A stretch of DNA of 64,000 bases from Frigoribacterium endophyticum (lineage in GTDB: Bacteria > Actinomycetota > Actinomycetes > Actinomycetales > Microbacteriaceae): positions 992,001 through 1,056,000 of the forward strand of contig NZ_JAAOYV010000001.1 in assembly GCF_011759585.1 (NCBI RefSeq), read 5' to 3'. The notes beneath the pieces are model-generated. The model made no database searches. It saw only the letters and a list, made by a program, of their open reading frames with translations, and was not told the origin of the DNA. The first letter of the stretch is position 1; each line of letters starts with the position of its first letter. Shown piece after piece: positions 7,374-53,918 of the stretch. A program made the translations under genes and the position numbers.

Positions 7374-7448
7374 GTCGGCAACTCCTGCACGGTGCCCTCA
7401 TCGGCTCCCGGGACGGCCGCTCAGCGACACCCCGCAGGAGTTGCCGAC
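7374..7448. repeat. 75-bp inverted-repeat element, copy 1
   Basis: Perfect 15-base arms, GTCGGCAACTCCTGC at 7374-7388 and GCAGGAGTTGCCGAC at 7434-7448, enclose a 45-base interior. An inner GACA lies four bases inside the right arm. It is the first of four copies between the convergent genes holA and rpsT. Confidence 0.85.
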
Positions 7449-7524
7449 CGCGCCGCGTCGGAGGCGCTGAACCGGCGCCGACGCGGTGCCGCCGCCGCCG
7501 CATGTTCGGCGCAGCGAAGCGTGC

Positions 7525-7599
7525 GTCGGCGACTCCTGCTCTCGGTCGCGTGAGCGGCGTGGGGGCCACGTCGGCGGGCAGGCCGCAGGAGTTGCCGAC
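7525..7599. repeat. 75-bp inverted-repeat element, copy 2
   Basis: The left arm at 7525-7539 has one change (GTCGGCGACTCCTGC) and the right arm at 7585-7599 is perfect. The interior shares GAGCGGCGTGGGGGCC with copies 3 and 4. The 64-76 base spacers between copies 1-4 are also related to each other (for example GGGGGAGGCGCG and AGCGAAGCGTGC), so copies 2-4 form tandem units of about 140 bases. Confidence 0.85.
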
Positions 7600-7663
7600 C
7601 GTCCGCGGGGGAGGCGCGTGCCGATTCGGTCGCGGCCCGGACGTGCTGCGCAGCGAGGCGTGC

Positions 7664-7738
7664 GTCGGCAACTCCTGCTCCTGGTCGCGGGAGCGGCGTG
7701 GGGGCCGGCCCGGCGAGCAGGCTGCAGGAGTTGCCGAC
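7664..7738. repeat. 75-bp inverted-repeat element, copy 3
   Basis: Both 15-base arms (7664-7678 and 7724-7738) are perfect. The interior is close to those of copies 2 and 4. It starts 139 bases after copy 2. Confidence 0.85.
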
Positions 7739-7803
7739 GGCTCGCGGGGGAGGCGCGGTGCCGGTCCCGCCGCGCTCCGGACGTGCGGCGCGGCCAAGCG
7801 TGC

Positions 7804-7878
7804 GTCGGCAACTCCTGCTCCCTGTCTCGAGAGCGGCGTGGGGGCCGCCCTGGCGGGCAGCCCGCAGGAGTTGCCGAC
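7804..7878. repeat. 75-bp inverted-repeat element, copy 4
   Basis: Both arms (7804-7818 and 7864-7878) are perfect. An inner TGTC lies four bases inside the left arm and GGCA at the mirrored place. It starts 140 bases after copy 3 and lies just before the rpsT terminator hairpin. Confidence 0.85.
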
Positions 7879-7914
7879 GGCGACGGCGACGGCCCGCGAC
7901 CGCCGGCCGCGGGC

Positions 7915-7956
7915 ACGACGAAGGCCCCGTCTCCGAGGAGACGGGGCCTTCGTCGT
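7915..7956 (-). terminator. Terminator of rpsT, probably bidirectional
   Basis: A perfect 20-base stem (7915-7934 with 7937-7956) has the core GAAGGCCCCGTCTCC and only two unpaired bases (GA) at its tip, so the last pairs must open. It sits between the 3' ends of holA and rpsT and would stop transcripts from both sides. Confidence 0.85.
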
Positions 7957-8010
7957 CGACGACCAGGTCGTCGGGGATGCTGCGTCAGCGACGCGTCACC
8001 GGGGTTCGGC

Positions 8011-8271
8011 TCAGAGAGCGCTGACCTGCTTGGCGATGGCCGACTTGCGGTTCGCGGCCTGGTTCTTGTGGATGACGCCCTTGCTGGCGGCCTTGTCGAG
8101 TTTCTTCGCCGCGAGGGCGAGGGTGCTGGTGGCCTTGTCCTTGTCGCCCGAGACGATGGCCTCGCGCGTGGCGCGGATCGCGGTCTTGAGCTCGCTCTTG
8201 ACGGCCTTGTTGCGGTCCTGGGCCTTCTTGTTGGTGCCGATGCGCTTGATCTGCGACTTGATGTTTGCCAC
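8011..8271 (-). CDS. rpsT: 30S ribosomal protein S20
   Basis: Primary binding protein of the 5' domain of 16S rRNA. The 86-residue product begins (M)[20 protein letters not shown] and is rich in Lys and Ala, as expected for S20. The start is the GTG at 8271-8269; the frame is open further upstream, but the family start fits this GTG. A purine-rich GGAAGTAGCG precedes it. The gene is convergent with holA and divergent from the aminotransferase at 8508, with 236 bases between the two starts that must hold both promoters. Confidence 0.96.
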
Positions 8272-8507
8272 GTTCGCTACTTCCTTGGTTTCTGTGTCTG
8301 GACGAGTGATGCGCCAGCCGACCGGAGGACGGTGCGTCCTGCCCGGGCTGCCGCCGGTGCTGCCACCGGAGCGGCTCACGGCTGGGATCGCGTTCCGTCA
8401 GTTCAGACGTAACGCGCAAGCCAACAGGCAACGTTACCAGTCGCGTCCGCCATCCTCAACGACCGAGGGGCCGGAGGCGCGGCGTGTCGCCCGTAGTACC
8501 GTTCAGC

Positions 8508-9695
8508 ATGCCTTCGCTCGCCCCGCACGTCGCGTCCGTCCCCACGTCCGGCATCCGACGGATCTTCGAGATCGCGGCGAAGCTGGACGACGTCGCGATG
8601 CTCGTCGTGGGGGAGCCCGACGTGCCCGTGCCGCACCACGTCGCCGACGCGGCGAGGCGCGCCTGGGCCGACGACCGCACGAACTACACGCCGAACGGCG
8701 GCGTCCCCGCGCTCCGCGAGGCCCTGGTGGCGAAGCTCGCCCGCGAGAACGACGTCCACGTCGACGTCGAGCAGGTCTGGGTGACGGTCGGCGCCACGCA
8801 GGCCCTGCACCAGACGATGGGCCTGCTGCTGGCCGCGGGAGACGAGGTCCTCGTGCCCGACCCCGGCTACACGACCTTCACGATGAACGCCCGCATGCTC
8901 GACGCCGTCCCCGTGCCCTACGCGCTGTCGCCCGACCGCGGCTTCGTGCCGCACGTCGACGACCTCGAGAAGCTCGTCACTCCGCGAACCCGGGTGATCA
9001 TCGTCAACTCGCCGTCGAACCCCCTCGGCGTCGTCTACGAGCGGGAGGTGCTGCAGTCGCTCCTCGACTTCGCGGCGCGCCACGACCTCTGGGTGATCAG
9101 CGACGAGGTCTACGAGTACTTCACCTACGGCACGCCCCACGTCAGCCTGGCGAGCCTCGACGCCGACGACCGCGTCTTCAGCGTCTTCTCGACGAGCAAG
9201 ACGTACGCGATGACCGGGGTCCGGGTCGGCTACCTCGTGACGCCGCGCGGCCTCGCCGACACGATGCGCACGGTGCAGGAGGCCGCGATCAGCTGTGTCG
9301 CCGAGCCCGACCAGCTGGCGGCCCTCGCGGCCGTCCTCGGCGACCACTCGCCGGTCTCCGAGGCCCGCGAGCACTACCGCAGCAACCTCGAGCTGGCGAA
9401 GGGCCTGCTCGACGAGCGGGGCATCCGCTACCTCGACCCGCAGGGCGCCTTCTACCTCTGGATCGACGTCGGCCACGCCTCGCGGGGCGACGTCGCCGCC
9501 TGGGCGGAGGATCTCTTGTTCCAGCACCGCGTCGCCGTCGCGCCGGGCAGCGCGTTCGGCCGCTCCGGCGAGGGCTGGATCCGCGTCTGCCTCGCCTCGT
9601 CGCCCGAGGTGATCACGCGGGGCCTGGCCGCGCTGCCCGCTCCCGGCGACCCGCGACGCCCGCTCGGCCGCGCCTCCGTCGTGTCGTCCGACTGA
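8508..9695 (+). CDS. Pyridoxal phosphate-dependent aminotransferase (class I/II)
   Basis: Fold type I PLP enzyme of the class I/II aminotransferase family, 395 residues. Visible features are NYTPNGGVPALREAL near the N-terminus, VTVGATQAL (phosphate-binding region), NSPSNPLG with the conserved Asn, SDEVYEYF with the conserved Asp, and STSKTYAMTGVRVGYL with the PLP-binding Lys. The ATG at 8508 is preferred to the in-frame GTG at 8484 because a -10-like TAGTAC at 8494-8499 suggests a leaderless mRNA starting near it. The substrate is unknown; aspartate or an aromatic/branched amino acid are the usual options. No neighbour suggests a pathway. Confidence 0.88.
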   Translation: MPSLAPHVASVPTSGIRRIFEIAAKLDDVAMLVVGEPDVPVPHHVADAARRAWADDRTNYTPNGGVPALREALVAKLARENDVHVDVEQVWVTVGATQALHQTMGLLLAAGDEVLVPDPGYTTFTMNARMLDAVPVPYALSPDRGFVPHVDDLEKLVTPRTRVIIVNSPSNPLGVVYEREVLQSLLDFAARHDLWVISDEVYEYFTYGTPHVSLASLDADDRVFSVFSTSKTYAMTGVRVGYLVTPRGLADTMRTVQEAAISCVAEPDQLAALAAVLGDHSPVSEAREHYRSNLELAKGLLDERGIRYLDPQGAFYLWIDVGHASRGDVAAWAEDLLFQHRVAVAPGSAFGRSGEGWIRVCLASSPEVITRGLAALPAPGDPRRPLGRASVVSSD

Positions 9696-9733
9696 CCCGT
9701 CCCGCACCTCCCGCACCGCCGGGCGAGGGCGGG

Positions 9734-9753
9734 CCCCCGGCCGTTTCCGGGGG
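9734..9753 (+). terminator. Stem-loop after the aminotransferase
   Basis: A seven-base GC stem (CCCCCGG/CCGGGGG) with loop CCGTTT starts 38 bases after the stop codon. It plausibly ends the aminotransferase transcript. Confidence 0.55.
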
Positions 9754-9797
9754 TCAGCCCCCGAGGAGTCGCGGGTCGACTTTCCTAGGCTCGGTGC

Positions 9798-10112
9798 ATG
9801 ACCTCGACCACCACCGCCCCCGCCCCGTCCCCCTCCGTCGCCGCCCCCGCCGCTGCCTCCGCGCCGCTCAGCATCACGAGCCTCGTGCTCGGCCTGGTCT
9901 CCGTCGCCGCCGGCTTCACCCTCGTCGTGCCGATCGTCGGCCTCGTGCTCGGCGTCCTCGCGCGCCGTCGCGAGCCCGAGGCGCGCACGTTCTCGACGAT
10001 CGGCATCGTCGCCAACGCCGTCATGCTCGCGGGCGCGGCGATCGTGCTGGGCCTCGGCCTGGCCGTGGGCGTCCCGCTCGGCGTCGCGCACCTCCTCGGC
10101 GGCCTCGGCTAG
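9798..10112 (+). CDS. Small DUF4190-like membrane protein
   Basis: A 104-residue protein with a Thr/Ala/Pro-rich N-terminus (residues 1-27) followed by two hydrophobic helices separated by a short loop containing [18 protein letters not shown]. This layout, with LGLVS and [11 protein letters not shown] in the first half, fits the DUF4190 family of small actinobacterial membrane proteins whose function is unknown. The box TAGGCT at 9786-9791 lies six bases before the ATG, so the mRNA is probably leaderless. It stands alone between a terminator and lepA. Confidence 0.7.
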
Positions 10113-10221
10113 GCGGCCCGGGCCGACCCGCCGGGGGCGCGGGTCGGCGCTGCCGGGCCCTCGCCGCGTCGCGGGCGTGGGAGAATGCTCGGACCCCCGC
10201 CCGCCACCCCCAGAGGACCGT

Positions 10222-12072
10222 GTGAGCCCCCAAGCACTCCGAGCACTCGAGCCGGCCCAGACCGCGCCCGAGCAACTCCGCAACTTCTGCATCATCGCGC
10301 ACATCGACCACGGTAAGTCGACGCTGGCCGACCGCATGCTCGGCATCACCGGCGTCGTCGAGAGCCGCGCCATGCGCGCCCAGTACCTCGACCGCATGGA
10401 CATCGAGCGCGAGCGCGGCATCACGATCAAGAGCCAGGCCGTCCGCATGCCGTGGGAGCGCGACGGGGCGACCTACGCGCTGAACATGATCGACACCCCC
10501 GGGCACGTCGACTTCAGCTACGAGGTCTCCCGATCGCTCGCCGCCTGCGAGGGCGCGATCCTCCTGGTCGACGCCGCGCAGGGCATCGAGGCCCAGACGC
10601 TGGCGAACCTCTACCTGGCGCTCGAGAACGACCTCGAGATCATCCCGGTGCTCAACAAGATCGACCTGCCCGCGGCCGACCCCGACAAGTACGCGGCCGA
10701 GCTCGCGAGCCTGATCGGCGGCGACCCCGCCGACGTCCTCCGCGTCAGCGGCAAGACCGGCATGGGCGTCGAGGAGCTCCTCGACCGCGTGGTCGACCGC
10801 ATCCCGTCGCCGGTCGGCGTCGCCGACGCCCCGCCGCGAGCGATGATCTTCGACTCGGTCTACGACAGCTACCGCGGCGTCGTGACATACATCCGGATGA
10901 TCGACGGCACGCTGCACCCTCGCGAGAAGGTCCAGATGATGTCGACGAAGTCGACGCACGAGATCCTCGAGATCGGCGTCTCGTCGCCGGAGCCGGTGCC
11001 GAGCGCGGGGCTCAGCGTCGGCGAGGTCGGGTACCTCATCACCGGCGTGAAGGACGTCCGGCAGTCGAAGGTCGGCGACACCGTCACGACCCACGCGAAG
11101 CCGGCCACCGAGGCGCTGCCGGGCTACACCGAGCCGCTCCCGATGGTGTTCTCGGGCCTCTACCCGATCGACGGCAGCGACTACCCCGACCTCCGCGAGG
11201 CGCTCGACAAGCTTAAGCTCTCCGACGCGGCGTTGGTCTACGAGCCCGAGACGTCGGTGGCCCTCGGTTTCGGCTTCCGCTGCGGGTTCCTCGGCCTGCT
11301 GCACCTCGAGATCATCACCGAGCGGCTCGAGCGCGAGTTCGGCCTCGATCTGATCACGACCGCGCCGAGCGTGGTCTACGAGGTCACGGCGGAGGACGGC
11401 AAGACCGTCACCGTGACCAACCCCAGCGAGTTCCCCGGCGGCAAGATCGCCAGCGTCCGCGAGCCGATGGTGAAGGCCGCCATCCTCGCCCCGAAGGACT
11501 ACGTCGGCGTGATCATGGAGCTCTGCCAGCAGCGCCGCGGGTCGCTGCTCGGCATGGAGTACCTCGGCGAGGACCGCGTCGAGATCCGCTACGCGATGCC
11601 GCTCGGCGAGATCGTCTTCGACTTCTTCGACAGCCTCAAGTCGAAGACGGCCGGCTACGCGAGCCTCGACTACGAGCCCACCGGCGAGCAGGAGGCCGAC
11701 CTGGTCAAGGTCGACATCCTGCTGCAGGGCGAGCAGGTCGACGCCTTCAGCGCCATCGTCCACCGCGACAAGGCCTACGCCTACGGCGTGCTGATGACCG
11801 GGCGCCTCCGCGAGCTCATCCCGCGCCAGCAGTTCGAGGTGCCCATCCAGGCCGCGATCGGCGCGCGGATCATCGCGCGCGAGAGCATCCGCGCGATGCG
11901 CAAGGACGTCCTCGCCAAGTGCTACGGCGGCGACATCACCCGCAAGCGCAAGCTGCTCGAGAAGCAGAAGGAGGGCAAGAAGCGCATGAAGACCATCGGT
12001 CGCGTGGAGGTCCCCCAGGAGGCGTTCATCGCCGCCCTCTCCGGCGACACGGAGAAGAAGGACAAGAAGTAG
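10222..12072 (+). CDS. lepA: Elongation factor 4 (LepA)
   Basis: Translational GTPase that acts on stalled or mistranslocated ribosomes. The 616-residue product has the G1 motif AHIDHGKS at residues 26-33, RGITI (G2), DTPGHVDF (G3) and NKIDLP (G4), and the LepA-specific C-terminal domain ending [20 protein letters not shown]. The GTG at 10222 is chosen because CAGAGGA lies seven bases upstream; an in-frame start at 10177 would add a Pro-rich tail that is not typical. A -10-like GAGAAT at 10181-10186 would give a short leader. The DUF1990 gene follows after four bases. Confidence 0.96.
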
Positions 12073-12076
12073 CCCC

Positions 12077-12868
12077 ATGCGCCGAGCCACCCACACCGAG
12101 ACCCGGACCACCTACGGCGAGGTCGGGGCCACCCAGGCCGCCGACCTGATGCAGTACCCGCCGGTCGGTTTCACCCCGGTCGAGTACCGCACCCGGGTGG
12201 GCCACGGCGACGCGCGCTTCGAGGCGGCCTGCATCGCCGCCCTGACCTGGAAGATCCAGGAGCGCAGCGGCATCACGGTGCGCGTCGACGACGTCCCGCC
12301 CGCCGATGACACCGGCTACGTGCCGGTGACGTTCGACGAGTCGGGCGAGCCGGTCGACCCGGCGCACTGGAGCGAGGAGCGCCCCGACGAGTCGCGCTAC
12401 GCGCCCGACGGCACGCCCTTCCTCACGGCCGGCACGACCGCGACGCTGGTCATCTCTGCCTGGGGCCGCCAGGTGGAGGCGCCGGTGCGCGTCGTCTACG
12501 TCGTCGACGAGCCGAAGCGCAAGGGCTTCGCCTACGGCACGCTCGAGGGCCACCCCGAGAGCGGAGAAGAGAGCTGGATCGTCGACCAGACCGACGACGG
12601 CTCGGTGTGGCTGACGATCCGTGCCTTCTCGCGCCCGAGCACGTGGCGCTGGCGCCTCGTGTCGCCGTTCATGAAGCGGACGCAGACCCTCTACACGAAG
12701 CGCTACCTCCAGGCCCTGAGCCAGAACGACGAGACCGGCGACGCGAGCGAGACCGTGCCGAGCGTCGACGACGTCGACCTCGCGGCCGCCGCCGAGGCCG
12801 CGGCGGACGACGAGGAGTCGCGCCGTCACGGTCCCGACGAGGTCCGCGACGTGCGTCCGGGCCACTGA
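12077..12868 (+). CDS. DUF1990 family protein
   Basis: A 263-residue protein with the family pattern TYGEVGATQ near residue 15, then GFTPVEYRTRVGHGDARFEAACIAALTWKIQERSGI, and a later segment where VYVVDEPKRKGFAYGTLEGHPESGEESW and FSRPSTWRWRL occur. These match DUF1990, a widespread actinobacterial family of unknown function. The ATG lies four bases after the lepA stop and the hemW start lies two bases after its own stop, so it is likely cotranscribed with both. The last 40 residues are acidic and low in complexity. Confidence 0.85.
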   Translation: MRRATHTETRTTYGEVGATQAADLMQYPPVGFTPVEYRTRVGHGDARFEAACIAALTWKIQERSGITVRVDDVPPADDTGYVPVTFDESGEPVDPAHWSEERPDESRYAPDGTPFLTAGTTATLVISAWGRQVEAPVRVVYVVDEPKRKGFAYGTLEGHPESGEESWIVDQTDDGSVWLTIRAFSRPSTWRWRLVSPFMKRTQTLYTKRYLQALSQNDETGDASETVPSVDDVDLAAAAEAAADDEESRRHGPDEVRDVRPGH

Positions 12869-12870
12869 CG

Positions 12871-14097
12871 GTGCCCGGAGCCCTCCCCGTCGCCGACCCG
12901 GCCCCCGCCGACGGATCCCTGCCCGCCTCCGTTTGCGAGGGCGTCGCCGACCGCGACCTCGGCGTCTACCTCCACGTCCCGTTCTGCCGCGTCCGCTGCG
13001 GCTACTGCGACTTCAACACCTACACGGGCGACGAGCTGCGCGGGGCCCGTCGCGACGACTACGCCTCGCAGGCGGTGGCCGAGGTGGCCCAGGCCGGCCG
13101 TGTGCTCGAGCGGGCGGGCCTGCCGCCGCGCCGCGCCTCCACCGTGTTCTTCGGCGGCGGCACCCCGACGATGCTGCCGCACACCGACCTCGCGACGATG
13201 CTGCACGCCGTCGTCGACACCTGGGGGCTGGAGGCGGGGGCCGAGGTCACGACGGAGGCCAACCCGGACAGCGTCGACGCGGAGTACCTGCGCGCCCTCG
13301 CCGCCGCCGGCTTCACCCGGGTCAGCTTCGGCATGCAGTCGGCCGTGCCGAGCGTGCTGGCCACGCTCGAGCGCACCCACGACCCCGAGCGCATCCCGCT
13401 CGTCGTGGCCTGGGCCCGGGAGGCCGGCCTCGACGTCAGCCTCGACCTCATCTACGGCACGCCGGGCGAGACCCTCGACGACTGGACGAGGTCGCTCGAC
13501 GTCGCCCTCGCGCAGGAGCCCGACCACCTCTCGGCCTACGCCCTGATCGTCGAGGACGGCACGAAGCTCGCCCGGCAGATCCGCCGCGGCGAGGTCGCCC
13601 AGCCCGACGACGACACGGCCGCCGACATGTACGAGCTGGCCGACGCCCGCCTCGCCGAGGCCGGCTACGACTGGTACGAGGTGAGCAACTGGTCGCGCGG
13701 CGTCGAGCACCGGTCGCGCCACAACCTGTCGTACTGGACGGGCCAGGACTGGTGGGGCGTCGGGCCCGGCGCACACAGCCACGTCGGCGGGGTCCGCTGG
13801 TGGAACGTCAAGCACCCCGCCGCCTACGCGCAGCGCATGACCGCGGGGGAGTCGCCCGGGGCGGGGCGGGAGACCCTCGACGACGAGACGCGCCGGGTCG
13901 AGCGCGTGCTGCTCGCCGTGCGCACGCGGGACGGCCTGCCGACGAGCGACCTCGACGCGACGGGCCGGGCGGCGGTCGCCGGGCTCATCGCGGACGGATG
14001 GATCGACGGCCGCGCCGCCCTCGCCGGCCGCGTCGAGCTGACGCGCACCGGGCGCCTGATGGCCGACGCCGTCGTCAGCCGGCTGCTCCCGGCGTGA
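12871..14097 (+). CDS. hemW: Radical SAM heme chaperone HemW
   Basis: HemW family protein, a radical SAM enzyme relative that binds heme and delivers it to target proteins (often annotated as oxygen-independent coproporphyrinogen III oxidase). The 408-residue product has the cluster-binding motif C39-x3-C43-x2-C46 within HVPFCRVRCGYCDF, then FFGGGTPTML, EANPDSV and SFGMQS. The extra Cys preceding the motif in true HemN is not seen, which supports HemW. The GTG at 12871 is two bases after the DUF1990 stop; no better start lies between. lepA followed by hemW and hrcA is the common order in actinobacteria. Confidence 0.9.
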   Translation: MPGALPVADPAPADGSLPASVCEGVADRDLGVYLHVPFCRVRCGYCDFNTYTGDELRGARRDDYASQAVAEVAQAGRVLERAGLPPRRASTVFFGGGTPTMLPHTDLATMLHAVVDTWGLEAGAEVTTEANPDSVDAEYLRALAAAGFTRVSFGMQSAVPSVLATLERTHDPERIPLVVAWAREAGLDVSLDLIYGTPGETLDDWTRSLDVALAQEPDHLSAYALIVEDGTKLARQIRRGEVAQPDDDTAADMYELADARLAEAGYDWYEVSNWSRGVEHRSRHNLSYWTGQDWWGVGPGAHSHVGGVRWWNVKHPAAYAQRMTAGESPGAGRETLDDETRRVERVLLAVRTRDGLPTSDLDATGRAAVAGLIADGWIDGRAALAGRVELTRTGRLMADAVVSRLLPA

Positions 14098-14099
14098 CG

Positions 14100-14132: not shown

Positions 14133-14163
14133 GTGGGTGCGGCGGCGCTGTCGCGCCGGCGGG

Positions 14164-14906: not shown

Positions 14907-14966
14907 CCGGTCCGTGTCGACGCCCGCGGGGCGCGCCGGGCCCGTGGTGCGATGAGGAGGTGTGCG

Positions 14967-26437: not shown

Positions 26438-26512
26438 GTCGGCAACTCCTGCACACCGTCGTCTAGAGCGACGCCGGAGCCGCTGGCGCGCCACGGGGCA
26501 GGAGTTGCCGAC
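26438..26512. repeat. 75-bp inverted-repeat element, copy 5
   Basis: Both 15-base arms (26438-26452 and 26498-26512) are perfect and the pairing extends four bases outward (CCCG / CGGG). The interior is unrelated to copies 1-4 in sequence but identical in length. It is a single copy between convergent genes. Confidence 0.85.
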
Positions 26513-26597
26513 CGGGCTGTCCCGGGGGCCCGGCGCGAGCGGGGGCCCGGCGCGAGCGGGGGCAGCGGCCCGCGACCGCGAGGAGGCGCGGGCCGGC

Positions 26598-33622: not shown

Positions 33623-33697
33623 GTCGGCAACTCCTGCTCGCTGTCACGCCGCGGCGGCCCAGCCCCTCCCCACGTGCAGCGTGCAGGACGAGCCGAC
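33623..33697. repeat. 75-bp inverted-repeat element, copy 6 (decayed right arm)
   Basis: The left arm at 33623-33637 is perfect; the right arm at 33683-33697 reads GCAGGACGAGCCGAC, with three changes. The inner TGTC is present on the left. The length is still 75 bases. Confidence 0.75.
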
Positions 33698-33768
33698 CGC
33701 CGCGTCGCGCAACCGGCACCGGACCGTCGACGCCGGGCTGGAGGCGGCAGGGTCCGCCGCCGCGCCCC

Positions 33769-33933
33769 CGCCTCCGCCTGGTGGTGCTGGGCGCCGACCC
33801 CCGCCTCCGCCTGGTGGTGCTGGGCGCCGACCCGCGCCTCCGCCTGGTGGTGCTGGGCGCCGACCCGCGCCTCCGCCTGGTGGTGCTGGGCGCCGACCCG
33901 CGCCTCCGCCTGGTGGTGCTGGGCAGCGACCCC
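33769..33933. repeat. 33-bp minisatellite, five copies
   Basis: Five near-identical 33-base units beginning CGCCTCCGCCTGGTGGTGCT run head to tail. All six frames stay open or nearly so because the unit is a multiple of three and GC-rich, but none has a credible start, ribosome binding site or homologous protein, so I call it noncoding. It lies between element copies 6 and 7. Confidence 0.85.
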
Positions 33934-33990
33934 CGCCGCCCACCCTGGGCGTCTCCCCACCGCTCGCCGCCGGTGCCCCCGGGTGCTCGG

Positions 33991-34065
33991 GTGGGGAACT
34001 CCTGAACGGTGTCTCCGGCGCGCGCTCCGCGGCTCGGGCCGCGACAGCGGGCAGGAGTCGCCGAC
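33991..34065. repeat. 75-bp inverted-repeat element, copy 7 (decayed left arm)
   Basis: The left arm at 33991-34005 reads GTGGGGAACTCCTGA (three changes) and the right arm at 34051-34065 has one change. The inner dyad TGTC / GACA sits exactly four bases inside each arm. Confidence 0.75.
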
Positions 34066-34130: not shown

Positions 34131-34205
34131 GTCGGGAATTCCTGCTGGGTGTCGTCACGGCGCGCTCGGCGGCTCGGCCCACGACAGCGCGCAGGAGTTG
34201 CCGAC
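34131..34205. repeat. 75-bp inverted-repeat element, copy 8
   Basis: The left arm at 34131-34145 reads GTCGGGAATTCCTGC (two changes); the right arm at 34191-34205 is perfect. The inner TGTCGT / ACGACA dyad is clear. It starts 140 bases after copy 7 and shares its interior GCGCGCTC-GCGGCTCGG, so the two form a tandem pair. Confidence 0.8.
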
Positions 34206-34268: not shown

Positions 34269-34343
34269 GTCGGCAACTCCTGCCGGGTGTCGTCGGCGGG
34301 GGCGTCGAGGCGCGTCACGCCGCAGGGAGCAGGAGTTGCCGAC
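34269..34343. repeat. 75-bp inverted-repeat element, copy 9
   Basis: Both arms (34269-34283 and 34329-34343) are perfect, and the left inner TGTC is present. It starts 138 bases after copy 8, continuing the tandem spacing of about 140 bases. Confidence 0.85.
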
Positions 34344-34675: not shown

Positions 34676-35626
34676 ATGACGACGATCCGAGAGCTGGTGC
34701 ACGACGCCGGCGGACTGCTGCACAAGCGTGATCTGGTCGCGCACGGCGCGTCCGACCGACACCTCACCGCTGCCGTCCGCCACGGGGGAGTGCTGCGGCC
34801 CCGCAGGGGGTGGTACTCGACGTGGAGTCCGACCGATCCGCGCTTCGTCGCCGTCGGCGTCGGGGGCCGCCTCGCGGGGGCGTCCGCGCTGGCCCTGCAG
34901 GGAGCCTGGGCCTGGCGGCCACCCTCGCAGGTCGTCGTCTCCGTGCCCCGGACGGCGTCACGGCTCCGCCGCAGGCCGGGAACGAGGGTGGTGTGGGACG
35001 GCCCGGCCGTCTCGGGCCGCGGCACGTCCGCCGTCGTCCACGTGCACGACGCCCTGTCGCGAGCCGTCGTCGAGGCCGGCTCGTTCGAGGACGCCGTCGC
35101 CCTCGCCGACTGGGCCCGACGGGCCGCAGTGGTCGACCGGGTCGACGTCGAGCCCGTGCTCGGAGCCCATCAGCGCGACGCGGCGGGCCTGGCCGCCTGG
35201 AGCGACGAGGGTGCCCAGAGCATGATCGAGAGCGTCGCGGGCACGCGCCTCCGCCTCCGAGGTCGGCGGGTGGCTCGGCAGGTGGTCGTGGGCCCCCTGG
35301 GGGAGGCGGTCGACCTGACCGTCGACGGGCTCGTCGGTCTCGAGACGGACGGCCGAGAGCACCACGAGGGCCGGTTCGAACGCGACAGGTGGAAGGACGG
35401 CCTGACAGCCCGGGCCGGGTACCTGCCGCTCCGGGCGAGCTTCCTCGCCGTGCGCCACCGGTGGGCCGAGACGGAGGCCGCCGTCGACGCCATGATCAGC
35501 ACCGCGGGCGGCCCTGCCCCCGGCGGACGGCCCGCGCCGGGGCTCCCGCGGCTCCTGGCTGCTCGGGGCGGGCGGTCCTGGAGGCTGTCCCGGGAATGCC
35601 GGGGGCGTGGCCGGACTTGGCTCTAG
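34676..35626 (+). CDS. AbiEi-like N-terminal domain fused to a DUF559/Vsr-like nuclease fold domain
   Basis: A 316-residue protein. The N-terminal part (TIRELVHDAGGLLHKRDLVAHGASDRHLTAAVRHGGVLRPRRGWYS, residues 2-50) matches the AbiEi antitoxin-type winged helix. The C-terminal part (about 200-285) shows VDLTVDGLVGLETDGREHHEGRFERDRWKDGLTARAGYLPLRAS, the layout of DUF559/Vsr-like nuclease folds with the acidic D...E-x-D core. Such fusions are common and usually orphan in actinobacteria. No AbiEii toxin lies beside it. A -10-like CAGGAT lies six bases before the ATG. The DsbA-family gene follows after two bases. Function is unproven. Confidence 0.75.
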   Translation: MTTIRELVHDAGGLLHKRDLVAHGASDRHLTAAVRHGGVLRPRRGWYSTWSPTDPRFVAVGVGGRLAGASALALQGAWAWRPPSQVVVSVPRTASRLRRRPGTRVVWDGPAVSGRGTSAVVHVHDALSRAVVEAGSFEDAVALADWARRAAVVDRVDVEPVLGAHQRDAAGLAAWSDEGAQSMIESVAGTRLRLRGRRVARQVVVGPLGEAVDLTVDGLVGLETDGREHHEGRFERDRWKDGLTARAGYLPLRASFLAVRHRWAETEAAVDAMISTAGGPAPGGRPAPGLPRLLAARGGRSWRLSRECRGRGRTWL

Positions 35627-35628
35627 GC

Positions 35629-36345
35629 GTGACCGACTCGACCCCCGCCTCCACCGTTCCCTCCCCCCGCGACCCCGTCGTCGTCGACGTGTGGAGCGAC
35701 ATCGCCTGCCCGTGGTGCTTCATCGGCAAGCGCAAGTTCGAGGCCGCGGTCGAGAGGTTCGAGGGCGCCGTCACCGTCGAGTACCACTCGTTCGAGCTCT
35801 CGCCCGACACCCCGGTGGACTTCGAGGGCGACGAGATCGACTTCCTGTCGAAGCACAAGGGCATGCCGGCCGACCAGGTGCAGGGCATGCTCGACAACGT
35901 CGCCGGGATCGCCGCCGAGGTCGGGCTCGCCTACGACTTCGACGCCCTGAGGCACACCAACACCGTCAAGGCGCACCAGCTGCTGCACTTCGCGAAGGCC
36001 CGGGGGCGCCAGCTCGACATGAAGGAGCGCCTCCTCTCGGCCTACTTCGAGGAGGGGCGTCACGTCGGCCGGGTCGAGGACCTCGCCGACCTGGCCGCCG
36101 AGGTCGGGCTCGACCGCGACGAGGTCGTCGCGGCCCTGGAGTCGGACGCCCACCTCGCCGACGTCCGTGACGATCAGCGGCAGGCCCAGGCCTACGGCAT
36201 CTCGGGGGTCCCCTTCTTCGTCCTCGAGGGCAAGTACGGCATCAGCGGCGCCCAGGCGCCGGAGACCTTCCTCGGGGCGCTGCAGCAGGTCGTCGCCGAG
36301 CGCAGCGCGGCTGCGGCGGCTCCCGCCGTCGGGGTCGACCGATGA
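35629..36345 (+). CDS. DsbA-family oxidoreductase (FrnE-like)
   Basis: A 238-residue thioredoxin-fold protein with the redox motif CPWC at residues 27-30 (DVWSDIACPWCFIGKRKF) and the FrnE-type insertion GISGVPFFVLEGKYGISGAQAPETF near the C-terminus. No signal peptide is present, so it works in the cytosol. Relatives act as polyketide-type isomerases or stress-linked disulfide enzymes. The GTG lies two bases after the preceding stop and the small gene at 36342 overlaps its own stop by four bases, so the three are likely cotranscribed. Confidence 0.88.
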   Translation: MTDSTPASTVPSPRDPVVVDVWSDIACPWCFIGKRKFEAAVERFEGAVTVEYHSFELSPDTPVDFEGDEIDFLSKHKGMPADQVQGMLDNVAGIAAEVGLAYDFDALRHTNTVKAHQLLHFAKARGRQLDMKERLLSAYFEEGRHVGRVEDLADLAAEVGLDRDEVVAALESDAHLADVRDDQRQAQAYGISGVPFFVLEGKYGISGAQAPETFLGALQQVVAERSAAAAAPAVGVDR

Positions 36346-44814: not shown

Positions 44815-44815
44815 C

Positions 44816-47583: not shown

Positions 47584-47585
47584 CC

Positions 47586-48524: not shown

Positions 48525-49534
48525 CCGGCAGCGCTGACGTCCCGGTCGCCCGCGGGCACCGCTCCACCGACGTGGTCGCCGCCCTCCCCGCCGACCGCCG
48601 GCCCCGCCCGGGCGCCGTCACCGTGGCGCCGCGGGAGTCCCCGGTCTTCGTGGCCGCCGTCGAGGAGGCCGGGGGCACGCTCGTCCCGCTCGGCCCCGAC
48701 ACGCGCGGCCTGATCTGGCTGTCGTACCGTGACGTCGCCGGCCTCGACGCGGCACTCGCCGCCCATCCCGGCATCGAGTGGGTCCAGCTGCCCTGGGCCG
48801 GCGTCGACGCCTTCTCCGACGTGCTGGCCCGGCACGCCGACGCCCCCCGGCCCCTCTGGACGAGCGCGAAGGGCGCGTACTCCGAGCCGGTCGCCGAGCA
48901 CGCCCTGATGCTCGTCCTCTCGCTGTTCCGGGTCGTGCCCTCGCGCGTCCAGGCCACCTCGTGGCAGACCGAGCAGCGAGGGGTCTCGCTGTACGGCCGA
49001 CGGGTCGTCGTCGTGGGCGCCGGAGGGATCGCGCGCGAGCTGCTGCGGCTGCTCGCGCCCTTCGAGTGCCGCGTGACGGTGGTCCGCCGGTCGGCCGAGC
49101 CCGTGGCGGGCGCCGAGCGCACGGTCACCGTCGAGCAGCTCGACGAGGTGCTCCCCGACGCCGACGTCGTCGTGCTCGCGGCGGCCTCGACCGCCGAGAC
49201 GGCGCGCCTCGTCGACGCCCGGCGGCTCGCGCTGCTCCCTCCGCGGGCCGTCCTGGTGAACGTCGCGCGCGGTGACCTCGTCGACACGGAGGCGCTGGTC
49301 GCCGCCCTGGACGACGAGCGTCTCTGGGGCGCCGGCCTCGACGTGACGTCGCCCGAGCCCCTGCCCGACGGGCACCCGCTCTGGGGCCACCCCCGGGCGA
49401 TTGTGACGCCGCACCAGGCGGACACCCCCGAGATGACGGCGCCGCTGCTCGCCGGGCGCATCCGCCACAACGTGCGCGCCCTGGCCGGCGACGGCGACTT
49501 CGCGGGGGTCGTCGACCCGCGCGCCGGCTACTGA
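48521..49534 (+). CDS. D-2-hydroxyacid dehydrogenase family protein
   Basis: NAD-dependent oxidoreductase of 337 residues that interconverts 2-hydroxy and 2-oxo acids. The cofactor site VVVVGAGGIARELLRLL is near residue 163, the catalytic Arg is in VNVARGDLVDTEAL, and the catalytic His is in TPHQAD, with the acidic GLDVTSPEPLP between them. The N-terminal substrate domain is weakly conserved. Being the last gene of the peptide transporter operon, it may process an imported compound. The ATG overlaps the preceding stop. Confidence 0.85.
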   Translation: MTGSADVPVARGHRSTDVVAALPADRRPRPGAVTVAPRESPVFVAAVEEAGGTLVPLGPDTRGLIWLSYRDVAGLDAALAAHPGIEWVQLPWAGVDAFSDVLARHADAPRPLWTSAKGAYSEPVAEHALMLVLSLFRVVPSRVQATSWQTEQRGVSLYGRRVVVVGAGGIARELLRLLAPFECRVTVVRRSAEPVAGAERTVTVEQLDEVLPDADVVVLAAASTAETARLVDARRLALLPPRAVLVNVARGDLVDTEALVAALDDERLWGAGLDVTSPEPLPDGHPLWGHPRAIVTPHQADTPEMTAPLLAGRIRHNVRALAGDGDFAGVVDPRAGY

Positions 49535-49679
49535 GGTCCGGTCCCACGGCCGCCCGCGGGCGGTGGGTGCAGGGGCCGCGGCGCGACGCGCCCGGCGCGC
49601 GCCCGGTGTTCATCCGGAGGTCAGATGTGCGCTACAGTTGGACCCGCTGTTGAGAACTCAGGTTCGCAGCAGTTGCCAT

Positions 49680-49752
49680 TCCTCGATAGCTCAATTGGCA
49701 GAGCAGCCGGCTGTTAACCGGCAGGTTCTTGGTTCGAGTCCAAGTCGGGGAG
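49680..49752 (+). tRNA. tRNA-Asn (anticodon GTT)
   Basis: A full cloverleaf can be folded. Acceptor TCCTCGA pairs with TCGGGGA (one G-U), D arm GCTC/GAGC, anticodon stem GCCGG/CCGGC with loop CTGTTAA (anticodon GTT at 49713-49715), and T arm CTTGG-TTCGAGT-CCAAG. CCA is not encoded. A box TACAGT at 49633-49638 is a likely promoter -10. The 3' end and terminator are tandemly duplicated. Confidence 0.95.
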
Positions 49753-49754
49753 CG

Positions 49755-49786
49755 AAGGCCCAGCGGCTCCACCCGCTGGGCCTTTT
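49755..49786 (+). terminator. Terminator of tRNA-Asn
   Basis: AAGGCCCAGCGG and its complement form a 12-base stem with loop CTCCAC, ending in TTTT. It starts three bases after the tRNA. Confidence 0.9.
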
Positions 49787-49805
49787 CACGTTCTGGGGGA
49801 GCGAC

Positions 49806-49831
49806 GGCCCAGCGGCTCCGCCCGCTGGGCC
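49806..49831 (-). terminator. Second copy of the tRNA-Asn terminator hairpin
   Basis: GGCCCAGCGG-CTCCGC-CCGCTGGGCC is a near copy of the first hairpin, lying in the gap before the convergent def gene. It could stop the def transcript on the - strand. Confidence 0.7.
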
Positions 49832-49874
49832 TCCTCACGTCCTCGGGGAGCGACGAGGCCCGAGGCCGCGCCGA

Positions 49875-50441
49875 TCAGTCGTCGAGGTGGTCGACGCCCG
49901 GCAGCCAGGTCTTGCCGGGCACGCCCCAGCTCGCGCGCTTCACGGCCTTGGCGGCAGCCTTGTGGAACGGGTGCTCGAGACGGTCGGCGTAGAGCACGCC
50001 GTCGAGGTGGTCGTACTCGTGCTGGAAGATGCGGGCGAGCCAGCCGACCGCCTCGATCTCGAACGGCTGCCCGTCGAGGTCGGTGGCCCGGAGCAGCACG
50101 CTGTCGGCACGGCGCAGCGGGAAGCGCTCGCCCGGGATCGACAGGCAGCCCTCCGACTCGCCCTCGTCGTCGAGCGGCTCGATCGTCAGCGGGCTCTGCC
50201 AGAGGGTCGGGTTGATCGCGACGCCGCGCTGGTCGCCTCCGTCGTCGTCGATCCACGACCAGACGAACAGGCGGAGGCCCACGCCCACCTGCGGGCCGGC
50301 CAGGCCGACCCCGGGAGCGGCGTCCATGGTCTCGAACATGTCGGCGACGAGCGTGCGCAGCTCGTCGTCGATGTCGAGCACCTCGGAGGCGCGGTGGTGG
50401 AGGACGGGATCACCCGTGATCGAGATGGGACGTACGGCCAT
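49875..50441 (-). CDS. def: Peptide deformylase
   Basis: Removes the formyl group from new proteins, using a bound metal. The 188-residue product has motif 2 EGCLSIPG with the metal Cys and motif 3 QHEYDHLDG with the two metal His and catalytic Glu. Motif 1 reads GVGLAGPQVG, with Gly in place of the commoner second Ala (GVGLAAPQVG). The ATG is at 50441, 40 bases from the divergent membrane protein gene at 50482. Confidence 0.95.
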   Translation of the reverse strand: MAVRPISITGDPVLHHRASEVLDIDDELRTLVADMFETMDAAPGVGLAGPQVGVGLRLFVWSWIDDDGGDQRGVAINPTLWQSPLTIEPLDDEGESEGCLSIPGERFPLRRADSVLLRATDLDGQPFEIEAVGWLARIFQHEYDHLDGVLYADRLEHPFHKAAAKAVKRASWGVPGKTWLPGVDHLDD

Positions 50442-50481
50442 TCGTCCAGACTATCGACGACGCGCCCGCTACCGTGGTCGC

Positions 50482-51396
50482 GTGAGCGCTGACCTCGGGG
50501 ACCTGACCGCCCAGGTCTCGCTGACCCCGTACCAGGCGCTCGGCATCCCGCTCGCCCTCGTCGGCGCGGTCTTCCTGTCGATCGGCGCGCAGCTGCAGAG
50601 CCGGGGGGTGGCGAAGGTCGAGCACCGGCTCGGCGCGGCGCACAGCGGCATGTCGGTGCGCCAGGTCCTCGCCCTGCTCGGGCGGCCCTCGTGGGTGATG
50701 GGGACGGCCATGCTGGGCCTCGCGATCGTCTTCCAGCTCACCAGCCTGAAGATCGCGCCCCTCCTCGTCGTGCAGCCGCTCGGCGCCGTCGCGCTCGTCG
50801 TCACGGCCCTCGTCAACGCCCGGGTGACGGGGCGTCGGCTGACCGGCCGGGTCAAGCGCTCGATCGCGATCTGCGTGGGCGGCATCGGGCTGTTCGCGAC
50901 CGTCGCCGCCTTCACCGCCACGGAGAGCCCGATCACGACCCCGCAGCTCGTCACGGTGCTCGTGCTGCTGCTCTTGGTGGGGGCCCTGCTCGGAGGGGCG
51001 TTCGTGCTCCTGCGCCGTCGCCGCAGCGCGCTGTTCTACATCATCGGCGCCGGGGTGCTCTACGGCTTCGTGGCGACGCTCGCCAAGGTCGTCCTGAACA
51101 GGATCACGGCGGGGGAGTTCGACTGGCTCAGCGTGGTCTGCCTCGTGATGCTCCTCGCCGCCGGGGCCCTGGGCGGGTACTTCGTGCAGAACGCCTACTC
51201 GTCGGGCTCGCCCGACCTCGTCATCGCCGGCCTCACGGTGGTCGACCCGATCATCGCCGTCACGATCGGCATCGTCGTGCTGGGGGAGGCCGCGACCGCG
51301 CCCGCCGTCGCCGTCGTGCTCTTCCTGCTCGCCGGCGCGGTCGCCGTCTACGGCGTGTTCCAGCTGGCCAAATACCAGCCCGTGAAGAAGACCTGA
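50482..51396 (+). CDS. DMT-type multi-helix membrane protein
   Basis: A 304-residue membrane protein with about nine to ten hydrophobic helices, arranged as in drug/metabolite transporters (EamA/DMT; NIPA-like members have similar N-termini: GIPLALVGAVFLSIGAQLQSRGVAKVE). LKIAPLLVVQPLGAVALVVTALVNARVTGRRL is characteristic of this actinobacterial group. The substrate is unknown. The GTG at 50482 has TACCGT six bases upstream, so the mRNA is probably leaderless. The C-terminus QLAKYQPVKKT is short and basic. Confidence 0.8.
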   Translation: MSADLGDLTAQVSLTPYQALGIPLALVGAVFLSIGAQLQSRGVAKVEHRLGAAHSGMSVRQVLALLGRPSWVMGTAMLGLAIVFQLTSLKIAPLLVVQPLGAVALVVTALVNARVTGRRLTGRVKRSIAICVGGIGLFATVAAFTATESPITTPQLVTVLVLLLLVGALLGGAFVLLRRRRSALFYIIGAGVLYGFVATLAKVVLNRITAGEFDWLSVVCLVMLLAAGALGGYFVQNAYSSGSPDLVIAGLTVVDPIIAVTIGIVVLGEAATAPAVAVVLFLLAGAVAVYGVFQLAKYQPVKKT

Positions 51397-51529
51397 GCTA
51401 GCGTGGCCACGCCGTGTCGGGAGCGGGCCGTCGACCGGGCGCGCGCCTCCTCGGCACGACCCGCGCCTCCTCGCCTCACCTGACCACCGTTCGACCTGAC
51501 CACCGAGCCTCACGAAGGACGCCCGAGAC

Positions 51530-52768
51530 GTGACCGACGCCCCCGATCCCGCCGCGCCGACCCGCCCGGAGGCCGCCTCCGACGCCCGCCTCACCGTGCT
51601 GATCGCCGCCGACACCTTTCCGCCCGACGTCAACGGCGCGGCCAACTTCGCCGAGCGCCTCGCCGTCGGGCTCGCCGACCGTGGCCACGACGTGCACGTG
51701 CTGGCCCCGGCGGCGACTCGTCGGCACGGCACGTTCCTGGAGCAGCACGCCGGCACGACCCTCACCGTCCACCGCCTGTACTCCACGCGCTGGCCGCTGC
51801 ACGACTGGCTGCGCTTCGCGACCCCGTGGCGGGCGCAGCGCAACGCCGAGCGCGTGATCGAGCAGGTGAAGCCCGACGTCGTCCACATCCAGTCGCACAT
51901 CGTCATCGGCCGCGCCGTCGTGCGCGTCGCGAACCGCCTCGGCATCCGCGCCGTCGCGACGAACCACTTCATGCCCGAGAACCTCCTCGAGCACACCGGG
52001 CTGCCTCAGGGGCTCCGGGCCACCGCCGTCGCGCTGGCGTGGAAGGACGCGAGCTCGACGTTCCGCCGCGTCGAGGCCATCACGACGCCGACGCAGGCCG
52101 CCGCGGACTTCCTCGAACAGGCCGTCGACGTGCACGGCGTGCTCGCCGTCTCGTGCGGCATCGACGCGGCCGACTACACCGCCAGGACGGACCGCCCGGC
52201 CGAGAACCGGATCGTGTTCGTCGGCCGGGTCACCGCCGAGAAGCAGATCGACGTGCTGCTGCGGGCCGTGACCCAGCTCGACCCTGCCCTCGGCGCCACG
52301 CTGACGATCGTCGGCGGGGGCGACCTGATGAAGCAGCTGCAGCAGCTGACCGTCGAGCTGGGCCTCTCCGACCGGGTGACCTTCGCGGGGTACCTCTCCG
52401 ACCACGACCTGCGGCAGACGCTCACGGACGCCACGGTGTTCGCGATGCCCTCGATCGCCGAGCTGCAGAGCATCGCCAGCCTCGAGGCGATGGCGTCGGG
52501 CCTGCCCATCGTCGTCGCCGACGCGATGGCGCTGCCGCACCTCGTGACGGAGGGCGTCAACGGGCACCTCTTCCGGCCCGGCGACAGCCGAGACCTCGCG
52601 GCGAAGCTGACCCGGGTGCTGACCCTCCCCGACGACGACTACCTCGCGATGCGGCGGGCCAGCCTGCGGGTCATCCAGGGGCACGACATCCAGCGCACGC
52701 TGAGCGTGTTCGAGGGGCTGTATCGTGGTCAGCCGGTGGCACCCACCACCGAGGTCGACCCGGCCTGA
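51530..52768 (+). CDS. GT4-family glycosyltransferase
   Basis: A 412-residue GT-B enzyme of family GT4 (Pfam Glyco_transf_4 and Glycos_transf_1). The N-terminal domain starts IAADTFPPDVNGAANFAERLAVGLADRGHDVHVLAP. The C-terminal domain has IVFVGRVTAEKQIDVLLRAV and the donor site with MPSIAELQSIASLEAMASGLPIVVADAMALPHLV. Similar actinobacterial enzymes transfer mannose from GDP-mannose to glycolipids, which is a reasonable but unproven role. The GTG start follows AAGGACGCCCGAGAC; a TAGCGT box at 51399-51404 would give a leader of about 120 bases. Confidence 0.87.
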   Translation: MTDAPDPAAPTRPEAASDARLTVLIAADTFPPDVNGAANFAERLAVGLADRGHDVHVLAPAATRRHGTFLEQHAGTTLTVHRLYSTRWPLHDWLRFATPWRAQRNAERVIEQVKPDVVHIQSHIVIGRAVVRVANRLGIRAVATNHFMPENLLEHTGLPQGLRATAVALAWKDASSTFRRVEAITTPTQAAADFLEQAVDVHGVLAVSCGIDAADYTARTDRPAENRIVFVGRVTAEKQIDVLLRAVTQLDPALGATLTIVGGGDLMKQLQQLTVELGLSDRVTFAGYLSDHDLRQTLTDATVFAMPSIAELQSIASLEAMASGLPIVVADAMALPHLVTEGVNGHLFRPGDSRDLAAKLTRVLTLPDDDYLAMRRASLRVIQGHDIQRTLSVFEGLYRGQPVAPTTEVDPA

Positions 52769-52797
52769 CCCGCCTCGGCGGCCCGACGGGTCGGCGG

Positions 52798-52871
52798 GGG
52801 GCGGTAGCTCAGCCGGTTAGAGCAGTCGACTCATAATCGATCGGTCACGGGTTCAAGTCCCGTCCGCCCTA
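52798..52871 (+). tRNA. tRNA-Met (anticodon CAT, elongator type)
   Basis: Acceptor GGGGCGG pairs with CCGCCCT (one G-U), D arm GCTC/GAGC, anticodon stem GTCGA/TCGAT with loop CTCATAA, T arm ACGGG-TTCAAGT-CCCGT, discriminator A. The anticodon stem lacks the three G-C pairs of initiator tRNA, so it is an elongator. A tRNA-Ile with lysidine at the same anticodon is the alternative; the sequence resembles known actinobacterial elongator tRNA-Met. Confidence 0.88.
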
Positions 52872-52903
52872 CTGGTGTCGCGTACGGTGCGTCGTCGTGC
52901 GCC

Positions 52904-52938
52904 GCGTCTCGCGTCTCGCGTCTCGCGCCTCGCGCCTC
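52904..52938. repeat. 7-bp tandem repeat after tRNA-Met
   Basis: Three copies of GCGTCTC followed by two of GCGCCTC run head to tail between the tRNA and the next gene. Confidence 0.8.
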
Positions 52939-52968
52939 GCGCTGAGGTGCCTGTGGCACGATGTGCGC

Positions 52969-53286
52969 ATGTTCACGAGGCGACCGCGCGACCTGCAGTC
53001 CGACGACGACGGCCCCGCGGCCGGCCCGGCCCGCATGGGCATCGGGGCGCAGGTGTACGTGCTCGACTCCGACGAGGACGCCGCGTCGCCCTTCCCCTAC
53101 GGCCCGACCGGCGTCGTGCTGCGGGCCGGTGGCTCGGCCTGGCAGGGCGTCTCCGCCATCGGCGGGTCCGCCCGCACCTGGTGGGTCGAGTTCGACTCGC
53201 CGCAGATCGACCGTGACGGCGACGGGCCCGTCGAGCGTGCCCAGGTCGCCGAGCGCTTCCTCCGCCTCGCGCCCCCGCTGGCCTGA
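52969..53286 (+). CDS. Small protein of 105 residues, unknown function
   Basis: The ATG at 52969 has CACGAT six bases upstream, consistent with a leaderless mRNA. The product begins MFTRRPRDLQSDDDGPAAGP and has a compact region from residue 22 on (GIGAQVYVLDSDED, PTGVVLRAGG, RTWWVEFDSPQIDRDGDGPVERAQVAERFLRLAPPLA) that could be a small beta barrel of SH3-like shape. I do not recognise the family. Strong third-position GC bias supports coding. The third cluster of inverted-repeat elements follows it. Confidence 0.7.
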   Translation: MFTRRPRDLQSDDDGPAAGPARMGIGAQVYVLDSDEDAASPFPYGPTGVVLRAGGSAWQGVSAIGGSARTWWVEFDSPQIDRDGDGPVERAQVAERFLRLAPPLA

Positions 53287-53468
53287 CCCGCTCCTCCCTC
53301 TCCTCGTCCCGCTCTGGCGCCCCGTCCGCACCGGAGGGCAGCGCCCTTCCCTCCGGCGTCCCCCGGGCCCCGACGGGGCCCCTCGACCGACCCCCTCGAC
53401 CGGGCCCCTCGACCGGCCCCCTCCCCGTCCGAGCGCCCGCCTACCGTCTCGTCTGCCGCCCCCGGCCT

Positions 53469-53543
53469 GTCGGCAACTCCTGCTCCGGGTCCCGGAGCTG
53501 CCCCGTCGGCCGGGAGGGGCGCGCCTGAGCAGGAGTTGCCGAC
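53469..53543. repeat. 75-bp inverted-repeat element, copy 10
   Basis: Both arms (53469-53483 and 53529-53543) are perfect. The interior differs from all other copies. The surrounding 740 bases (53287-54026) hold no supported gene. Confidence 0.85.
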
Positions 53544-53643
53544 ACGCCTGGGCGAATCGAGTCCGCCCCGGAGCCCCGGGTGCGCGACGGCCCGTGTCTC
53601 CGCCCACCGCGACTCCTCGCAGGTCTCGGGATCGCCGCCCTCG

Positions 53644-53719
53644 GTCGGCAACTCCTGCCCTGCGCTGCGCGGAGCGGGTGGAGTCGCGGTGTCGGAGGCA
53701 GGGAGCAGGAGTTGCCGAC
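53644..53719. repeat. 76-bp inverted-repeat element, copy 11
   Basis: Both arms (53644-53658 and 53705-53719) are perfect; the interior is 46 bases. It is identical to copy 12 except for one base. Confidence 0.85.
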
Positions 53720-53728
53720 ACGGTGTGA

Positions 53729-53743
53729 GCAGGAATTGCCGAC
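53729..53743. repeat. Solitary right arm of the inverted-repeat element
   Basis: GCAGGAATTGCCGAC, one base different from the consensus right arm, lies nine bases after copy 11 with no matching left arm beside it. Confidence 0.7.
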
Positions 53744-53842
53744 ACGATGGGAAGGAGAGGGCGCGCCCGGCGATGGCGAGACGGCCAGGTCGGGTTGGGT
53801 GCGGTCGCTCGCTCGCGGCTGTCACATGACCCCTCGTGCTCG

Positions 53843-53918
53843 GTCGGCAACTCCTGCCCTGTGCTGCGCGGAGCGGGTGGAGTCGCGGTGTCGGAGGCAG
53901 GGAGCAGGAGTTGCCGAC
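53843..53918. repeat. 76-bp inverted-repeat element, copy 12
   Basis: Both arms (53843-53857 and 53904-53918) are perfect. Copies 11 and 12 are 199 bases apart and match over about 80 bases with a single C/T change, so one was copied from the other recently. Confidence 0.85.

Follow-up and report, generated by a model that had tools for sequence, protein, structure and literature searches.

The described systems closest to the repeats considered here are the RAYT/REPIN pairs and the AbiEi antitoxins of the type IV toxin-antitoxin system AbiE. In the parts of the RAYT/REPIN accounts drawn on here, extragenic repeats are paired as inverted doublets with conserved ends, also in arrays, and are clustered beside the gene of their own enzyme, one genome having several such enzyme-repeat pairs (PMC3116915), each repetitive extragenic palindrome (REP) being a short palindrome of 20-40 bp (PMC3733652). 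The sections consulted on AbiEi describe autoregulation by AbiEi and Rv2827c via inverted repeats, cooperative binding of two inverted 23-bp sites by two monomers of the S. agalactiae protein with bending of the DNA, and site pairs 13 bp apart for Rv2827c (PMC7319586). Here, a stretch of 64,000 nucleotides from Frigoribacterium endophyticum (contig NZ_JAAOYV010000001.1, positions 992,001 to 1,056,000; referred to as the window) was analysed, which carries a family of twelve two-armed inverted-repeat elements and, beside four of them, a gene for a protein of 316 residues (34676..35626, + strand; start codon set by comparison with relatives), termed the nuclease gene in the following. Computation established the site family and its confinement to the surroundings of the gene, private site families at paralogues, two-sided bracketing of many homologues by palindromes, quantised element lengths and conservation of the gene. 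We infer, at a probability of about 0.62, that the elements are paired half-sites of this gene, bound by its protein, in a resident selfish-type unit that the nuclease may, hypothetically, spread.

All twelve elements listed by a sequence-only reading of the window were found in the printed sequences, ten of 75 bp and two of 76 bp, with both arms perfect in eight, and the 15-mer of the arm exceeded chance (29 matches at ≤3 mismatches in the window against 4.18 expected, the maximum of 100 shuffles being 10). In the genome to which the window belongs (G000; 3.32 Mb, 6 contigs), 27 half-sites were identified at ≤1 mismatch, 26 of which lie within 959-1046 kb of contig 1, at most 70 kb from the nuclease gene. 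A two-arm search (45 bp between the arms, ≤3 mismatches) yielded two further elements outside the window (contig positions 959001-959075 and 959191-959265), bringing the elements found in this genome to 14. The exact 15-mer was present in 15 of 16 Frigoribacterium genomes but absent from all 44 other relatives, and a half-site with one mismatch allowed was present in all 16; a search for the exact two-arm pattern (40-70 bp between the arms) returned 13 stretches of genome_contigs, all of them from Frigoribacterium, and no match in viral_contigs.

In some species a second cluster of elements adjoins a second copy of the 34676-35626 gene, and gene copies bracketed by two sites occupy more than one chromosomal place. 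Diverged paralogues carry palindromes of their own. Exact copies of one of these, GTCGAGGACTCAGG, lie within 30 kb of its paralogue gene in G007 (15/15) and no more than 65 kb from it in G001 (13/13), G012 (10/12) and G011 (16/17, the remaining copy being on a different contig), while G004 has 0 exact copies, with 86-bp variant elements in the 20-kb stretch examined. The second paralogue of G000 itself (G000:C1:316340-317263) is accompanied by one exact half-site (306870) and two weak elements, and thus retains few sites that can still be recognised, in contrast to its relatives in G001, G007, G011 and G012. The association between gene and sites is strong, and no report of it was found in the open-licence literature. 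Regional clustering along the chromosome is also what speaks for terminus or segregation elements, the chromosome-structure sites proposed by the sequence-only reading. This candidate was rejected because the clusters, including the second clusters elsewhere, follow gene copies rather than dif or another landmark; the distance from the main cluster to the dif-like site is ~260-400 kb in four genomes and 630-723 kb in G015, and the explanation is considered the most improbable of those weighed. The dif-like site was called from what we take to be the actinobacterial dif consensus and was found, with 0-1 mismatch and once each, at G000:C1:1354510, G004:C1:1660029, G005:C1:1245776, G007:C1:2153956 and G015:C1:1855443, with one additional match at 3 mismatches in G000. 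GC skew across the 128 kb surrounding the cluster was too noisy to decide the matter.

At several loci the gene is flanked by an element on each side, and its coding end is overlapped by the 3' element. For a survey of this arrangement, the best 30 of the 153 genomes with a homologue were taken, and 29 loci were kept after L188, whose match touches the contig end, had been dropped. A locus was counted as passing the two-sided test at a score of ≤6, the final run being carried out with wider windows. Matching palindromes on both sides were found in 19/29 loci, compared with 2/156 mismatched flanks and 2/300 random intervals; by family, 16/23 passed in one and 3/6 in the others. The two spans were equal within one base in 18 of the 19 passing loci, and three of the ten failing loci also had equal spans (94/94, 82/82 and 72/72) but weak arms. 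Among loci outside the survey, 11/20 from Frigoribacterium and 3/10 from other genera passed. In the first run, 19/29 loci and 0/120 mismatched pairs passed at ≤6, and in the second (30 loci, 3' windows too narrow for Frigoribacterium) 1/300 random intervals did. L116 and L164 are two rows of the final test for the same gene; L165-L167 have common arms, which leaves some dependence among the mismatched controls. Bracketing in other genera was observed in G024 (92 and 92 bp), G019 and, for another family, G045 (91 and 91 bp), where the neighbours were judged by eye to be ftsH-like and hpt-like. An unsupervised repeat scan was noisy in GC-rich controls when loose spans were allowed; with spans within 2 bp and at least three copies, it gave 10/22 close-homologue loci and 5/20 diverged-homologue loci, against 1/15 controls and 0/6 nearby gene-less loci.

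Element geometry was examined at 52 loci from the 16 genomes, which are chosen clusters and not entire genomes. The 145 pairs listed (51 loci with a pair) were reduced to 142 distinct elements by setting aside two 58-bp pairs at the nuclease gene end and one G004 duplicate (overlap of L068 and L200). Their lengths fall into classes of 75-76 bp (19), 84-88 bp (103) and 96-98 bp (20), with 0 intermediates, and the best-fit period of the length steps is 11.0-11.1 bp (101 elements, including one 58-bp pair); with the half-site taken as 23 bp, the gaps between half-sites come to 29, 40 or 51 bp, successive values differing by one helical turn. The 75-76 bp class comprises all 14 elements of G000 and all five examined of G004, at several loci, the lengths in other species being 84-98 bp. 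Likewise, arm position 15 is C in 37/38 half-sites of G000 and G004 and in 148/210 half-sites of the remaining ten genomes, and A in 26/36 half-sites of G001, G007, G011 and G012. Since these shifts are species-wide across many loci, they suggest that a factor acts in trans or that copies convert one another. At one locus of G005 (L064, 8195-8277), half-sites stand in direct orientation at 34-bp steps, as opposed to the usual inverted pair.

The information content and co-variation of the half-sites were calculated from 100 genus elements that remained after removal of similar interiors. Information extends from position 1 to ~22, with traces to 25 and values near zero beyond; the inner TGTC/GACA described by the sequence-only reading proved real but only partial, the genus half-sites having a second signal block at positions 20-22 with the consensus TGC. 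Left-right likeness within an element was the same as that between elements of the same genome (arm, 0.895 vs 0.895; positions 16-23, 0.496 vs 0.507; positions 24-30, 0.400 vs 0.397); no co-variation was thus observed. This, together with a half-site of ~22 bp that is near the 23-bp AbiEi site, argues for a protein acting on duplex DNA rather than for an RNA hairpin. RNA hairpins serving as terminators or mRNA-end protection elements, which had been another candidate, would agree with the position of the window sites, all four of which do lie directly 3' of a + strand gene, and with the folding of the seven of twelve elements tested, each better than its shuffles (z -3.5 to -6.0), as is expected of any 15-bp inverted repeat. 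However, the 11-bp steps are not required by a hairpin, Rfam gave no match on the elements (two tRNAs only in the window), a terminator scan of one region (7150-8100) called none on an element, and a separate terminator-like hairpin, recognised by eye and unlisted by the scan, occupies the holA-rpsT gap of G000 and of four relatives. Together with the independence of the halves, this leaves the hairpin explanation very unlikely. No internal dyad was seen by eye in GTCGGCAACTCCTGC, and folding pairs one arm with the other.

The proposed arrangement is one in which two inverted half-sites of ~22 bp would each be bound by one copy of the protein, their spacing would put the two bound copies on the same helix face, and the copies would meet across bent or looped spacer DNA. 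It draws on the AbiEi precedent for binding and bending, on the one-turn steps of the gaps and on the periodicity of LacR loops in vivo, given as 11.08 to 11.60 bp per turn in the part of the source consulted (PMC1762422). The earlier suggestion that the constant length reflects a protein on both ends is thus strengthened by the ~11-bp steps, the independent halves and the near-AbiEi length of the half-site, the binding itself being presumed. Gene and sites would then form a resident selfish-type unit, in which extra sites have accumulated mostly near the gene; the nuclease might spread the unit and solo sites, acting preferentially near its own gene (favoured), or the protein might act in regulation only.

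The protein encoded by the nuclease gene has an AbiEi-type winged helix at ~residues 1-50 and a predicted Vsr/I-Bth0305I-like nuclease domain at ~180-280. PADLOC gave weak AbiEi matches on the N-terminal part and one match to Hhe, and a sequence search of the PDB gave a single match (E 0.96). Homologues at ≥59% identity were detected with tblastn in 16/16 Frigoribacterium genomes, the ratio of nonsynonymous to synonymous substitution rates (dN/dS) is 0.12-0.29 in 16 homologue pairs, and the family is present in 153/297 sampled genomes of the order and in 53/95 genera; no role for it was found in the open-licence literature. Carriage by phages or plasmids was rejected: the exact two-arm pattern is missing from viral_contigs, and the L143 protein matched 0/50,697 phage and 2/72,556 plasmid records at E 1e-5. 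A scan of viral_contigs that reaches close relatives only confirmed no relatives of the protein.

With AbiEi the protein shares the N-terminal winged helix, and the inverted pairs of ~22-bp half-sites, its putative sites, resemble the inverted ~23-bp sites of S. agalactiae in the sections consulted (PMC7319586). It differs in its C-terminal nuclease-like domain, in the distance between half-sites (29, 40 or 51 bp here, 3 or 13 bp there), in the many copies away from the gene and in the lack of a DUF1814-type toxin among the neighbours scanned (glyS, the Dus gene and an open reading frame (ORF) without family at 35607-36170; not every ORF was scanned). The Vsr-like homing endonucleases (I-Bth0305I), which are marked by a Vsr-type nuclease fold with conserved acidic/His residues, may share the catalytic fold predicted for the protein and have a similarly patchy, selfish-type gene distribution; here, however, no intron or intein was seen, and there are flanking palindromes and multiplied solo sites.

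RAYT/REPIN provides the closest logic: the elements are extragenic inverted repeat doublets with conserved ends, partly in arrays, each family lies beside its own enzyme gene, and one genome can hold several such enzyme-repeat pairs, as in the published description where consulted (PMC3116915), and to this extent the earlier MITE/REPIN suggestion stood. As to the family it did not fit, as the adjoining gene that tracks the sites matches AbiEi_4 and the restriction endonuclease (REase) family MTES_1575/DUF559 and no Y1 family, no genome-wide search for Y1 having been made. Furthermore, a single arm forms no hairpin, element lengths advance in ~11-bp steps, most of the few copies are no farther than 60-80 kb from the gene, and some genomes carry close gene copies at two or more places. 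Because enzyme, half-site and spacing rule differ, the elements were not filed as members. The family matches of the gene and the lack of a hairpin in the arm, together with 14 elements found near one gene and length steps that point to duplex DNA, make REPINs that depend on a Y1 (RAYT) transposase gene at another location very improbable, even though extragenic inverted pairs clustered beside an enzyme gene speak for them. The best reading is that the elements are REPIN-like modules belonging to a resident nuclease, a counterpart of RAYT/REPIN whose enzyme is unrelated to the Y1 transposases.

The same gene gaps are occupied across species (leuA-recO, glyS-nuclease gene, unnamed gene-monooxygenase and the gap preceding lepA), with arms kept and interiors diverged. 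The leuA-recO gap holds at least one paired element in 13/15 genomes compared (G014 left out), the exceptions being G010 (a single half-site only) and G013 (none at ≤5 mismatches), and the gap preceding lepA holds an element in six genomes (G001, G005, G006, G007, G011 and G015). These shared positions, the dN/dS values and the autoregulation of AbiEi and Rv2827c, as far as that source was consulted (PMC7319586), would also fit host regulatory operators, namely a domesticated AbiEi-like regulator with operators at its own gene and at neighbours such as lepA, recO and the monooxygenase gene; selection would have retained these operators and tandem duplication increased their number. Such a role is judged unlikely, though less so than the explanations set aside above, as the genes on either side of the four-element holA-rpsT array are convergent, second gene copies are accompanied by clusters elsewhere, an operator would not be expected inside the coding end of the gene, where one copy lies, and G000 and G004 lack the element preceding lepA. 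One gene unit is found at a syntenic place in G005, G008 (contig end), G009 and G010 and is missing from G013, G014 and G015, where 20-23 bp separate the matching flanks of the empty site; this presence and absence may reflect gain or loss alike. The gap corresponding to the holA-rpsT array of G000 is short and element-free in G001, G004, G007 and G011. Miniature inverted-repeat transposable elements (MITEs) and insertion sequences likewise have inverted ends and both gene-bearing and solo copies, but each end here is a complete element with two arms, and neither a transposase family nor, in two comparisons, a target duplication was recognised.

Several points weigh against paired half-sites of a resident nuclease. 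The bracketing test was failed by 10/29 survey loci and 7/10 other-genus loci, 23 of the 29 survey loci come from one family in a set of best matches that is not a random sample, and the gene of G000 itself fails, having elements 5' and none at its 3' end. Fixed-span palindrome families are not unique to the gene, since control L157 has one without it. The protein of the window is under the Pfam cut-offs, its structure model is poor (mean predicted local distance difference test score (pLDDT) of 51, seven sequences), and Foldseek gave E 0.74 for I-Bth0305I and 0.023 for AbiEi, none being <0.001. The independence of the halves was tested on strongly conserved arms, which limits its power; target duplication was not visible at the two filled/empty comparisons, where junctions are blurred by intergenic divergence; and the gene gaps shared across species mean that most sites are old. 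Finally, binding is deduced indirectly, and cleavage and movement of the sites are postulated. The palindromic repeat of L157 (G007 contig 1, ~2.306-2.313 Mb) has a fixed span of 106 bp and TCGGCGGGTTCCCGTCGC-like units, at 6032-6137, 6164-6269 and 12769-12874; no significant nuclease homologue was found in this 20-kb stretch, and its neighbours appear Wadjet/SMC-like by eye.

The window is core chromosome, with leuS, holA, rpsT, lepA, dnaJ, leuA, recO, glyS, a Dus gene and dnaG; comEA, hemW, hrcA, phoH, ybeY and dgt are presumably among its other genes, these names having been assigned by eye alone. Elements 1-4 (7374..7448, with both arms perfect, 7525..7599, 7664..7738 and 7804..7878; 75 bp each) lie in the holA-rpsT gap, elements 2-4 and their spacers repeating with a period of ~140 bp, and low-complexity GCGCCGCGCTGCCCC-like repeats adjoin this array just 3' of holA (7200-7310). 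Element 5 (26438..26512, 75 bp) is located in the leuA-recO gap and is immediately followed by a perfect 17-bp tandem duplication (26523-26556). The glyS-nuclease gap contains elements 6-9 (33623..33697, 33991..34065, 34131..34205 and 34269..34343; 75 bp each), the last being closest 5' of the nuclease gene, and a 33-bp tandem repeat (33732-33973) separates elements 6 and 7. Element 10 (53469..53543, 75 bp) lies 5' of a luciferase-like monooxygenase gene and is followed by element 11 (53644..53719, 76 bp), an unpaired additional right half-site with 1 mismatch (53729..53743, - strand) and element 12 (53843..53918, 76 bp), a near-copy of element 11. None of the twelve overlaps a gene in the window, as called with a simple GC-frame script; the view that elements stay outside genes holds there but not in relatives, where one copy reaches into the nuclease gene at its 3' end.

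More broadly, the locus might represent an unrecognised class of small mobile elements widespread in the order, in which a gene for a winged helix-turn-helix (wHTH)/Vsr-like nuclease would be bracketed by private two-site palindromes and would spread itself and solo palindromes, mainly in cis, through pairing of two half-sites on one face of the helix and cutting of DNA, as an evolutionary parallel to RAYT/REPIN with an unrelated enzyme; this is put forward tentatively, as a little short of an even chance. Because each gene comes with a DNA site of its own that can be read, the binding, cutting and movement of an orphan family become directly testable. If the reading is true, REPIN-like repeat families can belong to a nuclease with no relation to Y1 transposases, and the neighbourhood-limited spread together with the 11-bp spacing rule would preserve a natural trace of looped DNA and of activity near the gene.
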